In this document: one piece after another, positions 476-4,872 of the stretch
Layout of the letters: every line of letters starts with the position of its first letter
How positions within the stretch are numbered: position 1 is the first letter of the stretch
Source of the DNA: Prevotella fusca JCM 17724
GTDB lineage: Bacteria > Bacteroidota > Bacteroidia > Bacteroidales > Bacteroidaceae
NCBI RefSeq assembly: GCF_001262015.1
Contig: NZ_CP012074.1
Span: 1-64,000 of the forward strand
Reading direction: 5' to 3'
DNA: 64,000 nucleotides
Program-made: the position numbers and the translations under genes
The notes under the pieces: model-generated
Seen by the model: the letters and a program-made list of their open reading frames with translations, nothing else
The model's database searches: none
Told to the model about the DNA's origin: nothing

Positions 476-3400
476 TTATCTTAGTGTTGATATTGACTTC
501 GCTATTTTGGGATGATAACCACCTTTTTCCTTGATGTAATCGATGAGTTCTGCGAAGAGGTTATTGTGTCTTAATGTTGGCTCGTTACCAGTGAGAATCA
601 GCTGCTTGCGGGCTCTTGTGAGAGCAACATTCAGCTTGCGGTCGATGGGTTGATCGTCTTCGTGGAACGTGTTGGCGGTGAGAAAGTCGAGCTGATAGCG
701 GCTCTGAATGGTGAAAGAGTAGAGAATGATGTCACGTTGGCTTCCCTGATAGCGTTCGACAGTGTCGATACTGATTTCTTCCAGTTCGGGAATGCCGAGC
801 TTCTCAATCTCCTTTCGTATCATTGCAATCTGATTGCGATAGGGGACAATGACACCGACAGACTTCTGAGGCTCAAAGTCATTGCCGAGTTGACGATGCA
901 GACGTCTGAGCAGGTCGGCGATGATGCGTGCCTCTTCCGTGTTAACCTTCTCTGAAATGTTCAGTTGTCGGCACGGCTTTGAAGGGATGAAAATCATACG
1001 ATTTGCCTTCAGGACATCATCCGTTTCGTCTTCGCTTGCTTCGTTGTAAGGCAAGGTTTTCTCCAGTTGATGTGCTAATGGAACACATTCTAGTTGTTCC
1101 TTTGCATAGAACTTTCTATTTGCAAAGTCGGCAATATCGGGATGCATTCGTCCTTGTTTGTGCAATGTGCCGATAAAGTCCGTGCGTCCTGCAGCACGCT
1201 CTGTGAGGATAAGGCGTTCAAAGAGAGAGTTGGCGCAGGAGTTAAGATGGATAGCTTTCAGCGTTTCGTCTTCAACAATCACTTCCGTATCACTCTGCTG
1301 CACAACAGTTGGCAGCTGTTTATGGTCGCCAATCAGTATAAACTTTCGGACAGCCTCACCCCCCGCCCTTTCCTTCAGAGAGGGAGCTGCAAGATTGGTG
1401 ATGTTTTGCGAAATGTTTGCATACGAATTATTTACCGTTTTATAGCTCCCCTGCTGTGAGCCCGTATGGGATTCGTTAGCTGCAGCTCCCTCTCTGAAGG
1501 AGAGGGCGGGGGGTGAGGCTATAATACTTTTCAGCACCCATTCTGTCTGGTTCATTACCTCTTTGTTGGTAAATCGCAGTACATAAAATCCTTGTTCATT
1601 AAGATACTCTGTGCGGATAGAATCTTTTTCTTGCTGTTCTTTGCTATCATGATACTCACCATCGACTTCAATGATAAGACTAATTTCCAAGCAAATAAAA
1701 TCAGCAATATAGTCCCCTATGGCATGTTGCCTCCTGAACTTCAATCCAAGTTGTCGGTTTCTTATACATTGCCAAAGTAATTCCTCAGCATCAGTTGGGT
1801 TCTTACGATTATTGACAGCATTGTTTTTAAGAATTTGATAGATATCAGGCTGGGCTGTACGGAGTGGGGAAACCTCACCCCTCGCCCTCTCCTTCAGAGA
1901 GGGAACTGCAAGATTGGTAATGTTTTGCGAAATGTTTGCATACGAATTATTTACCGTTTTATAGTTCCCCTGCTGTGAGCCCGTATGGGATTCGTTAGCT
2001 GCAGCTCCCTCTCTGAAGGAGAGGGCGGGGGGTGAGGCTGTCAGTAAACCAATGATATTCGGCTCCAATATTTGACTCGCTTCATCAATGATGGCAAGGT
2101 CAAAATGCTTGATATTGAAGAGGGCGGAACGGGAGTTCATTGTTGAGGTGGTGGCAACTACAATCCGTGCATTCTCTAAGGTTGACTTGATGATGTTAAG
2201 TGTTGGACTTTCATCAATGACCTCCTGCAACAGATGGTCGCTGTATTTCGGGTCACAGCTGAACTCATTACCAATACGGATATAGTCAAGAGCATTCTCC
2301 GTTAGCATGTTACAAATCTCATCCACAGCACGATTTGTATAAGCAAGGAGAAGGATGGATGGATGGGTGTTAGGTGTTAGGTGTTGGGTGTTGATGGCTT
2401 CTGAAAGCTCGTTGTCCTTAGATACTTCCGCTGAATAAGCTGATGATGATTGTGAATAGATGCTTTCTTCCAACTGCTCACGCACAAGGAACTGCAGAGC
2501 CTGCGAGGTTTTTCCTGTGCCTGGAGGACCGATAAGGAGGAAATAATCCTGTGCCTGCTTTGCTTTCAGGATGATTTCGTCATAATCGGGATGGTAGCTG
2601 CGTGATAAGGTAAGGGACTTATCAATACGTGGTGCACGCTGTCCCAAGAGCAGTTGACGGCGTTCTTCGTTCGAAGTGATGAAGGTGTAGAGGCTTCGGA
2701 TGGCTGAAGTGCCACCGATGTCACTACCAGCGTGCTCAATGGCAAAACACTCTCCGCTGATAAGGTCAGGATTCTGCTGTCCGTCATTGAGGTGTACGAT
2801 GAGGCTGTCACCATGTATCTCCTGTAAAGAACCTTTGAAAAGAATACTTTGCCGCACGTCGGGTGCCTCGTTCTTCTTGTACGCATAGAGATAAATCATA
2901 TCTCCTCTGCGGAAGTTCGGGAGGAAATCTTCTCCCTGCTGGGGTACGGATAGTGTTATTGTATCATAGCCATTGAATGAGCTGCTGCGCTCTTTCCCGG
3001 TGATAGTCAGTCCGGTATAGATGTTTCCTGTCTCCTTCTTCTCTGCTAAAGGCATATTCCAAAGGTCGGCATTGCAGTTTCCCACACCTTCCTGTGCCCC
3101 CACTTTTCCCACAAGCTGTTCCTTGATTACAAAGTTCATCATACGTGTGAAATAAGCACGTTCAAGGTCGTTGAGCTGGTGAAGCGGTGCAAGCGTCTCT
3201 GTTAGCTGTGGCAAGAGGTATCTGTTGTAGAAGTTGTCGTTTTGTTTCTCGGTGTTCAGTGTCTGCGGTGTGAGTAATGGCAACATCCTTTCAAAACCAT
3301 TCTCTGCCATCCAGAACTCCGTTGCCACGGCTTGATTACGGAAGCGGATAGCCTCACGTATCAGTGTCTGCAGCGGCTCCACTTCGAGCAATCCGTCGGG

Positions 3401-4606
3401 TAGGGGATATTTAGAGTACAACAGTTGGATATGTGCATTCTTCGGACTAAGCTGAAAATTATATTGCAGGATACCATAGTAGAGCAACAGCTGCACATAG
3501 TGTTTCTCAACGTGGAGTGACCCATGCGGATTTTTATATTTGCGTTCAATAAAGATATTCTTGCCTGACTTCTGCTCAACAAGCAGTTTTAAGTCGGTTG
3601 TCATCAAGTCTACACGACCCTGTATGCCCAATCGCTCACACACGAAAGACGGCTCGAGGATAGCTTTCTCACGGTCGAAGCTCTGGAAGATTTCGTCCAC
3701 AATATCCTTGATGTTCTCCACCTGCTGTTCTGCCTCCTGCTTGAAGGAAGCTGCATCGAAGTCAGGACAGGTGGCAAAGTCCAATGCCTTCTCTCTGAAA
3801 TTAGAGCGGAAGGTGTCTTTGATGTCGTATGGGGCTGGGTGGTTGATGATGTCGTCGAGGGCTGAACCGGCAAAGTTACCTAAAACAATATGCTTGTTAG
3901 TAGGACGAGGGGTAAGCCTGTTGACGGTAAAAAGCAACGGATGGTGTCCGTAACTTTCAAAACAGTTGGCGATGGTAGAGATGTCTATCAGATAGTCTGG
4001 CTCTACAACGATAAGACGTGGTACAACCTTCTTTCGTGTAACAGTACAGTCAAGGAGGTTCAGCTGCATCCCTTCGCGCAGTAACGGGCGCAGATAGCTG
4101 AAGTCAACATACTCCGGTGTGTCCATATAGTCAACCGTCAGGAGTTCTTCGCTGCTGTCCTGATTGGTCACTGCTACTTGAATCGTATGCTCATCCCACT
4201 TCCTAACGAAACACCGGATATAACGATAATTCGTAATCTGAATATTCTCCGTGATGCGTCCGTGCGCTGGAATCCTGCCAACGAGGAACGAGGGAATAGT
4301 CTCCTGCACGACAGCAGAGACGAAGATAGCCAGTGCACGACAGTCATACGCCACGTCTTCAGGGAGGATCGGGGCGTAGGAGTTACTGTGACGACGCATT
4401 TTCTGGATTGCCACAATGTCCTGTGGGGCAATGTTATGCTGTCTGCAAAGCGACTCTACCTGTGAAGAAAGGTTGCCGAACCCATGTCGGGTATTTTTCA
4501 ATCCTTCATGACAGGCAATGACGAGCGTCTCGTGCATGATGAGTGCCTGTACTTCAGATGGTGCCGAAAGAATATCGGCAATGCGTGTGAAAAGTTCGTG
4601 TGCCAT
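476..4606 (-). CDS. Dna2-like PD-(D/E)XK nuclease / superfamily 1 helicase with an in-frame DUF559 insertion
   Basis: A 1376-residue protein expected to unwind and cut DNA in the cytoplasm. Around residues 290-400 there is a Cas4/Dna2-type nuclease region with GRVD (about 331) and EQKSGK (about 346). The SF1 helicase core follows: Walker A GPPGTGKT (about 693), AYTNRAVDE, Walker B DEAS (about 841), GDHKQLP (about 1093), a motif near YQGSQRD, and VALTRARKQL (about 1328). Between DEAS and GDHKQLP sit about 229 extra residues (857-1085): two near-identical peptides of about 56 residues flanking a complete DUF559 Vsr-like nuclease domain, with key stretch FRRQHAIGDYIADF then EVDGEYH. The reading frame is intact across it. 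A second unusual linker (about residues 705-755, including TQHLTPNTHP) is encoded by the CACCCATCA-type repeat. Homologues normally lack both, so activity is uncertain. Confidence 0.85.
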   Translation of the reverse strand: MAHELFTRIADILSAPSEVQALIMHETLVIACHEGLKNTRHGFGNLSSQVESLCRQHNIAPQDIVAIQKMRRHSNSYAPILPEDVAYDCRALAIFVSAVVQETIPSFLVGRIPAHGRITENIQITNYRYIRCFVRKWDEHTIQVAVTNQDSSEELLTVDYMDTPEYVDFSYLRPLLREGMQLNLLDCTVTRKKVVPRLIVVEPDYLIDISTIANCFESYGHHPLLFTVNRLTPRPTNKHIVLGNFAGSALDDIINHPAPYDIKDTFRSNFREKALDFATCPDFDAASFKQEAEQQVENIKDIVDEIFQSFDREKAILEPSFVCERLGIQGRVDLMTTDLKLLVEQKSGKNIFIERKYKNPHGSLHVEKHYVQLLLYYGILQYNFQLSPKNAHIQLLYSKYPLPDGLLEVEPLQTLIREAIRFRNQAVATEFWMAENGFERMLPLLTPQTLNTEKQNDNFYNRYLLPQLTETLAPLHQLNDLERAYFTRMMNFVIKEQLVGKVGAQEGVGNCNADLWNMPLAEKKETGNIYTGLTITGKERSSSFNGYDTITLSVPQQGEDFLPNFRRGDMIYLYAYKKNEAPDVRQSILFKGSLQEIHGDSLIVHLNDGQQNPDLISGECFAIEHAGSDIGGTSAIRSLYTFITSNEERRQLLLGQRAPRIDKSLTLSRSYHPDYDEIILKAKQAQDYFLLIGPPGTGKTSQALQFLVREQLEESIYSQSSSAYSAEVSKDNELSEAINTQHLTPNTHPSILLLAYTNRAVDEICNMLTENALDYIRIGNEFSCDPKYSDHLLQEVIDESPTLNIIKSTLENARIVVATTSTMNSRSALFNIKHFDLAIIDEASQILEPNIIGLLTASPPALSFREGAAANESHTGSQQGNYKTVNNSYANISQNITNLAVPSLKERARGEVSPLRTAQPDIYQILKNNAVNNRKNPTDAEELLWQCIRNRQLGLKFRRQHAIGDYIADFICLEISLIIEVDGEYHDSKEQQEKDSIRTEYLNEQGFYVLRFTNKEVMNQTEWVLKSIIASPPALSFREGAAANESHTGSQQGSYKTVNNSYANISQNITNLAAPSLKERAGGEAVRKFILIGDHKQLPTVVQQSDTEVIVEDETLKAIHLNSCANSLFERLILTERAAGRTDFIGTLHKQGRMHPDIADFANRKFYAKEQLECVPLAHQLEKTLPYNEASEDETDDVLKANRMIFIPSKPCRQLNISEKVNTEEARIIADLLRRLHRQLGNDFEPQKSVGVIVPYRNQIAMIRKEIEKLGIPELEEISIDTVERYQGSQRDIILYSFTIQSRYQLDFLTANTFHEDDQPIDRKLNVALTRARKQLILTGNEPTLRHNNLFAELIDYIKEKGGYHPKIAKSISTLR
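1352..1520. repeat. 169-bp MITE-like repeat, copy 1
   Basis: Downstream copy, in gene direction, of the direct repeat that brackets the DUF559 domain. Its termini are inverted repeats of about 33 bp, GC-rich at the ends and AT-rich inside. It has no stop codon in the host frame. Confidence 0.85.
1871..2039. repeat. 169-bp MITE-like repeat, copy 2
   Basis: Upstream copy, in gene direction. It differs from copy 1 at a handful of bases (for example CTCGCC for CCCGCC near its left end) and encodes almost the same peptide, again without a stop. Confidence 0.85.
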
Positions 4607-4758
4607 AGAAAAATGTCTCCCCTGTCACCCCCGAAGAGGAGGAATTACATTCGTGCAGTGTGTGGGGACTGATTCATTGCTGTATGTTTTGAGTGGAAAT
4701 AGTTGTTTTTAAATTAGTTTGTTACAGGTGATATATACCACAGAAAGACCTTTGGTGC

Positions 4759-4848
4759 GAATTATTTTCATGAAGAGAAGAATTTATTTACATGAAAATA
4801 AATATTTTTCTTCGTGAAAATAAATATTTTTTTTCATGAAAATAATTC
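4759..4848. repeat. AT-rich ~90-bp palindromic dispersed repeat, copy 1
   Basis: It opens with GAATTATTTTCATGAA and closes with the complement TTCATGAAAATAATTC. Between them are alternating CATGAAAATAAATATTT units. It fills most of the gap between the divergently oriented promoter side of the helicase gene and the end of the esterase gene. Five further copies occur in this window. Confidence 0.8.
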
Positions 4849-4872
4849 GACGATGATGGTCGTTTCGCTCTT

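Follow-up and report, generated by a model that had tools for sequence, protein, structure and literature searches.

Repetitive extragenic palindrome (REP)/REP-associated tyrosine transposase (RAYT) systems flank a single nuclease gene with a pair of short palindromic repeats in inverted orientation, with ends and enzyme that co-vary, gene presence that tracks repeat abundance, and dispersed copies that lack the gene, as described by Nunvar et al. 2010 (PMC2817692). The TMECO intrastrand triplex motifs of Holder et al. 2015 (PMC4666352), present in 23 copies in Escherichia coli, are always intergenic there, and the main text describes no transposase or integrase near them. The repeats of Claverie and coworkers reside in coding genes (PMC2267715). 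Here we analyse a 64,000-nt stretch of Prevotella fusca JCM 17724 (contig NZ_CP012074.1, positions 1 to 64,000; hereafter, the window), in which a superfamily 1 (SF1) helicase gene contains, in frame, a 688-bp block comprising a DUF559 nuclease segment and triplex-type motifs (TMs). A TM is a ~40-bp motif comprising a mirror-symmetric C-rich tail and a GC-rich hairpin, with the tail mirroring the first hairpin arm. We estimate a probability of roughly 0.6 that the block is an instance of a widespread DUF559-TM unit, in which DUF559 mobilises the TM repeats and host proteins tolerate the insert.

A DUF559 unit in frame in a helicase gene

The helicase open reading frame (ORF), on the minus strand, stays open across the whole block (Table 1), including both repeat copies, which the initial annotation had called stop-free. 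Pfam places AAA_11 at residues 677-800, DUF559 at residues 927-1029 (E ~9.9e-34), and AAA_12 at residues 1126-1342, and the motifs DEAS (residue 840), FRRQ of DUF559 (residue 956), and GDHKQL (residue 1092) follow in this order. This order puts the block, in frame, after Walker B and before the GDHKQLP motif, as had been proposed. Since 688 does not divide by 3, the reading frame survives only in combination with changes to the host loop.

In the coding direction, the block comprises a TM, a spacer, an inverted TM, DUF559, a TM, a spacer, and an inverted TM. The inverted ends inside each repeat copy (38-40 nt, 95-98% complementary) are 89 nt apart, and the outermost ends of the block pair mutually over 48 nt at 94%. 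Of the two 169-bp direct repeats with inverted ends that had been claimed, the repeats stand, as 167-bp copies 97% identical; the full-length 169-bp repeat has just 2 occurrences in its own genome and is a local unit, the general unit being the ~40-bp ends. The window motifs read CCTCACCCCCCGCCCTCTCC, and the related pattern CCTCACCCCN{2,12}CCCTCTCC occurs 21 times in the same genome versus 0 times for the reversed control, making a chance origin of the repeat pattern unlikely. Two near-identical 167-bp copies could in principle betray an assembly artefact; the genome is in 2 contigs at 99.37% completeness and related architecture recurs at many loci of other genomes, and we regard this explanation as negligible.

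Orthologues of the helicase show the site empty. Among 100 genus genomes, 83 have matches at E 1e-60 or better, and, of 29 other loci fetched, 22 were readable and 7 unreadable; the gap from DEAS to GD(H/Y)KQL is 24-44 residues in 22/22 readable loci versus 252 in the window. Specifically, the helicases of genomes G003 and G026 (84-85% identical) read EPNIVGILTA-RQEE(R/G)RAID-RFILVGDHKQLP, without insert. The initial annotation's expectation of an empty site in relatives is thus borne out, and the opposite pattern, with most relatives sharing the domain at this position without repeat flanks, is not what the readable loci display. A 23rd readable helicase, from G037, has a gap of 26 residues; in G037 and G030, DUF559 occupies another loop of the same gene, the one separating Walker A from Walker B, and is bordered by peptides that the repeats encode.

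One reading is that the insert gives the helicase a further function under selection, as in the new three-activity enzyme suggested initially. The fused ORF and the intact DUF559 motif would fit such an enzyme, yet the domain is missing from orthologues at this site, occupies a different loop of this helicase in two other species, and occurs in many unrelated hosts, and we consider a three-activity enzyme very improbable. On the same grounds, the alternative named there is favoured: the helicase more likely tolerates some 230 extra residues in a variable loop. The Cas4-like N-terminal nuclease of that enzyme is a label from reading motifs by eye and has no Pfam match in the scan of the ORF. 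Scanned in full against Pfam at E 0.001, the ORF returned no intein family, and PADLOC matched the helicase part to MkoA (E 1.7e-54) and others.

Two further repeats lie nearby. At positions 2364-2399 of the window, the helicase loop that follows Walker A contains a short repeat resembling GTGTTAGGTGTT and coding NTQHLTPNTHPS; this loop is where DUF559 sits in G037 and G030. Positions 4758-4849, just upstream of the helicase gene, carry A/T-rich repeats spaced by 22 nt that make a 46-nt inverted pair.

Table 1. Features of the helicase locus and its inserted block, in window coordinates
Feature	Position	Strand	Evidence
Host ORF, SF1 (AAA_11/AAA_12) helicase, 1376 aa including insert	476..4606	-	ORF list, Pfam, protein search
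Whole inserted unit, 688 bp, ends AGCCTCACC...GGTGAGGCT	1352..2039	-	Repeat analysis; orthologues with short loop
DUF559 (PF04480) nuclease segment, helicase frame	1523..1873	-	Pfam E 8.9e-35; fold match 3hrl, I-Bth0305I, Vsr
TM 1: outer, coding-strand 5' side, C-rich tail outward	2000..2039	-	Repeat analysis, TM detector
89-bp spacer within 167-bp copy 2	1911..1999	-	Repeat analysis
TM 2: inner, inverted	1873..1910	+	Repeat analysis
TM 3: inner	1481..1520	-	Repeat analysis
89-bp spacer within 167-bp copy 1	1392..1480	-	Repeat analysis
TM 4: outer, 3' side, inverted	1352..1391	+	Repeat analysis
167-bp direct repeat copy 1 (TM-spacer-TM)	1354..1520	.	Repeat analysis
167-bp direct repeat copy 2 (TM-spacer-TM), 97% identical to copy 1	1873..2039	.	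Repeat analysis

DUF559 genes and the motifs that bracket them

The window domain scores 119.3 bits against PF04480 (curated cut-off 20.6), and residues E31, E70, D72, G73, H76, and D85 are invariant across 50 aligned sequences. The best fold matches are 3hrl, I-Bth0305I, and Vsr, indicating a PD-(D/E)XK-type fold, not that of an HUH/Y1 tyrosine transposase. Judged from sequence and fold, DUF559 is probably a nuclease of the Vsr/EDxHD-homing-endonuclease-like kind. In contrast to the EDxHD homing endonucleases (I-Bth0305I, PDB 3r3p), the window ORF has no intron or intein, and the units have TM ends and many unrelated target sites; in contrast to the Vsr/YcjD nucleases as described in PMC1189080 (PDB 3hrl, 1cw0), the units are repeat-flanked and dispersed.

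We compiled 106 distinct DUF559 loci from the genus set of 100 genomes (four duplicates, L058, L061, L064, and L073, are excluded from the counts, and L131, with a broken domain, is excluded from the tree). The repeats vary between loci, and one architecture is common to them. An inverted repeat scoring at least 40 by local alignment of the two 300-bp flanks is present at 76/106 loci, versus 2/289 other ORFs of 110-200 aa and 168/3000 random pairings. A TM detector finds motifs on both flanks at 91/106 loci, 83 of these 91 inverted, versus 3/229 controls. A cross-taxon set of 81 loci, consisting of the best 80 among the matches listed (biased towards E. coli YcjD) plus E. coli ycjD, comprises, by record title, mainly Proteobacteria, together with Nitrospirae, Myxococcales, Chloroflexi, and others. 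There, TMs are present on both flanks at 57/81 loci (37 inverted, 20 in the same orientation; 57/73 when eight enterobacterial loci are removed) versus 0/236 controls, and an inverted flank repeat is present at 49/80 scorable loci (L193 being unscorable) versus 0/293 controls. In the window's own genome, a free-standing TM-DUF559-TM lies at C1:198568-199110 (L012 2067-2615), between acyl-CoA dehydrogenase-like and etf-like genes assigned by eye.

Ends and gene belong together. Across the 27 genomes with at least 2 loci, the two ends of a unit best match each other within the genome at 70/80 loci. The ends have two orientations, with the tail outward or inward, and within the genus orientation follows nuclease clade: on a FastTree nuclease tree of 82 loci with clear orientation, it changes 2 times versus a shuffled mean of 13.1. 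Seven genus genomes contain both orientations.

DUF559 also resides in frame in proteins unrelated to the helicase. In the genus, 37/106 loci lie within open frames of at least 250 aa, and a Pfam scan of 30 of these besides the window returned a second family in 26. DUF559 lies between host parts in leucyl-tRNA synthetase (LeuRS; two species, two loops), ABC-F, and DegT, and at one end of the frame in guanylate kinase, IspF (YgbB), SpoU methylase, RNase H, DprA, amino-acid kinase, HAD, peptidyl-arginine deiminase, and others; in N-terminal cases, the host may have an internal start. Outside the genus, 14 frames have at least 300 aa, and 9 of the 10 that were Pfam-scanned contain a host family: PriA, MetRS (3), MmeI (2), RecO, a DNA methylase, or a type I specificity-like protein. 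The repeat-flanked DUF559 that the initial annotation proposed to seek inside unrelated proteins is thus present, with ~40-bp TM ends rather than the 169-bp repeat. Absence in relatives was compared at two hosts, helicase and LeuRS: the insert in LeuRS of G089 starts and ends with TMs, and LeuRS of G058 (87-92% identical in pieces) is short-looped there. LeuRS of G053 contains a TM-only in-frame insert.

Related arrangements were seen alongside. In the window's own genome, C2:31801-31943 (L015 802-943) is a TM-spacer-TM without DUF559, in frame in an ABC-F-like ATPase gene (by eye), and C1:1760993-1761310 (L013 1457-2356) joins DUF559 and an RNase HI-like part (by eye) in one frame, where TM-like motifs flank DUF559; DUF559-RNase H frames are Pfam-confirmed in other species (L065, L173). 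LeuRS loops of L303, L318, and L308 contain other in-frame repeat-like inserts (AAAAATTAAAAATT-type, CTCAATTTTCAATCC-type) and no DUF559.

A different reading takes DUF559 to be a host DNA-repair enzyme, akin to very-short-patch repair, with nearby TMs as regulatory hairpins or hot-spot insertions. The fold match to Vsr, the enterobacterial genes with a TM on one side only (see below), and the genetics of a Caulobacter DUF559 protein, linked, in a Vsr-type manner, to the DNA damage of a methylase mutant in the account of PMC12907096, fit this role. Against it stand the patchy presence of PF04480 (62/100 genus genomes, 0 to 8 matches each) and the helicase and LeuRS units, which are in frame, TM-bordered, and missing in relatives, and by which repair as a full explanation is already strained; we think it unlikely.

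Motif abundance, E. coli ycjD, and the search for movement

The TM architecture is, by sequence comparison, that of the TMECO intrastrand triplex motif: the three-arm architecture is common to TMECO and the ends of DUF559 units. The window motifs deviate from the strict consensus CCCTCNCCC-N3-CCCTCNCCC-N3-6-GGGNGAGGG and have its mirror arm and hairpin. TMECO is intergenic with no mobility gene reported, whereas DUF559 units also lie within frames. The words DUF559 and ycjD are absent from the main text of PMC4666352; its Table 1 places copy no. 9 at 1,351,204-1,351,239, and ycjD, the E. coli DUF559 gene (minus strand), lies at 1,351,407-1,351,760, with copy no. 9 on its 3' side. A second, partial arm pairs with copy no. 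9 and overlaps the ycjD 3' end. Within 300 bp on the 5' side of ycjD, no TM was found; with both repeats on the 3' side, the gene is TM-adjacent, not bracketed.

DUF559 presence is associated with TM abundance in two distant groups. In the genus (100 genomes), the DUF559 count correlates with the copy number of one TM type (Spearman 0.457, uncorrected for host phylogeny); genomes with at least 10 TM copies comprise 18 with and 2 without DUF559, and genomes with fewer copies comprise 37 and 43. The TMECO consensus core is abundant in part of the Enterobacteriaceae. In the family of Enterobacter wuhouensis (149 genomes), at least 10 TMECO cores are present in 16/19 DUF559-positive versus 5/130 DUF559-negative genomes, likewise uncorrected, and, among genomes of at least 4 Mb, in 16/18 versus 5/58. 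There, positives are matches with E below 1e-25 (19 genomes, two with an internal stop), and 12 weaker matches count as negative; weak or partial PF04480 matches were set aside by hand in both groups. Among 60 listed of 5422 E. coli records, the 37 with ycjD have 14-31 TM places and 22 ycjD-less chromosomes have 2-23 (14/22 below 14); one row is a plasmid. A count of 82 TMs in G149 is doubtful, because the reversed control also matches 48 times.

A rival explanation is that DUF559 is a passenger, captured early between two TMs that were moved or multiplied by an unknown transposase, slippage, or repeat recombination. TM copies are more numerous than DUF559 genes, some TM-rich genomes have no strong DUF559, enterobacterial DUF559 genes are unbracketed, and TM sites change by arm-to-arm deletion, all as expected of a passenger. 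A passenger would not, however, be expected to keep its DUF559 motif at 101/106 genus loci, to predict end orientation by its clade in the genus, or to predict TM abundance in two distant groups. We consider the passenger explanation possible but rather improbable.

Besides the Vsr-like genetics in Caulobacter, a number of observations weigh against mobilisation by DUF559. At the level of bracketing, 15/106 genus loci have no TM on one or both sides, only 37/57 two-sided cross-taxon pairs are inverted, and orientation in the cross-taxon set (37 loci) has no clade signal (7 changes versus a shuffled mean of 6.5). The ycjD flank score is only 18, and 0/8 enterobacterial loci (L183, L190-L195, L237) are bracketed, 7 having a TM on one side and 1 having none; these unbracketed genes belong to the family with the strongest link between DUF559 and TM abundance. 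At the level of abundance, the correlations are uncorrected for host phylogeny, ycjD follows phylogroup according to PMC12817139, G128 and G183 have 69 and 32 TMs without strong DUF559, and three genomes have DUF559 and no TMs. At the level of movement, DUF559 is present in only 40/72,556 plasmid records, polymorphic TM sites in E. coli comprise a 186-bp segment and an arm-to-arm deletion and no clean TM insertions, and no excision or insertion event was seen.

The target duplication proposed as a check by the initial annotation could not be shown: none is readable at the helicase, where the host loop is too diverged, and no clean TM-only empty/occupied pair was found at LeuRS, between G003 and G026 (~109 aligned kb), or at E. 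coli fepB-entC, alx-sstT, and zntA-tusA. At fepB-entC, the 186-bp segment, which contains two inverted TMs with non-TM sequence on both sides, is present in K-12 and absent from three other strains (L288 versus L291-L293). The E. coli ycjD site was rejected as an empty/occupied pair, its other allele carrying an efflux operon. Separately, a 2-kb IS110-like insert (by eye) lies between TM-type motifs at C21:89140-91244 of G003 (L274) and is missing from G026.

A proposed mechanism and its meaning

With nuclease-plus-repeat units in several phyla, some inside essential enzymes, DUF559 may be what spreads the TM repeat. On this proposal, DUF559 would recognise TM ends, probably in a hairpin or triplex form that replication exposes, and would nick or cut at the TM ends and at the target, with host repair finishing the insertion. 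TM-only copies would be mobilised in trans, and the unbracketed enterobacterial DUF559 could be a resident copy that works in trans. Insertion would be frame-blind, and a copy in a needed gene would persist only where it keeps the frame, lacks stops, and falls in a surface loop; the window unit would be a case additionally bracketed by two near-identical TM-spacer-TM copies. The picture first drawn for this locus, of an element that bears a nuclease between inverted ends and persists by remaining translatable, gains support from the empty site and the in-frame units, from which we infer mobility.

By analogy, DUF559-TM would work like a REP/RAYT system with an unrelated nuclease. Inverted flanking repeats and gene presence that tracks repeat abundance (phylogeny uncorrected) are common to both. 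In contrast to REP/RAYT as described in PMC2817692, the enzyme is of PD-(D/E)XK type and not a tyrosine transposase, and DUF559-TM is therefore not a member of that family; the repeat is of the mirror-plus-hairpin kind, units also live in frame inside proteins, and the enterobacterial genes are unbracketed. Rickettsia palindromic elements are similar in being short palindromic DNA kept in frame in coding genes. To our knowledge, those elements do not carry a gene, whereas DUF559-TM units carry a nuclease gene. No paper linking DUF559 to TM repeats was found in a literature search that reached few subscription papers or bioRxiv preprints, and a search on Bacteroidetes repeats gave no match.

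A broader proposal, which we hold tentatively and rate somewhat short of even, is that DUF559-TM units form a class of autonomous mobile elements over several phyla and are the source of TMECO-type repeats, living in proteins, including essential ones, in the manner of inteins without splicing, with a homing-type nuclease that recognises intrastrand-triplex ends. The origin of a common bacterial repeat had been unknown, and with a candidate enzyme between two TMs the question can be put to the test, through the single gene ycjD in E. coli K-12 and through the bracketed units of other taxa. For annotation, a DUF559 fusion may be an insertion and not a new enzyme. If the proposal is true, the REP/RAYT principle would gain a second, unrelated enzyme, DUF559 would gain a role, and a nuclease gene could persist by in-frame insertion in housekeeping enzymes such as LeuRS without splicing.
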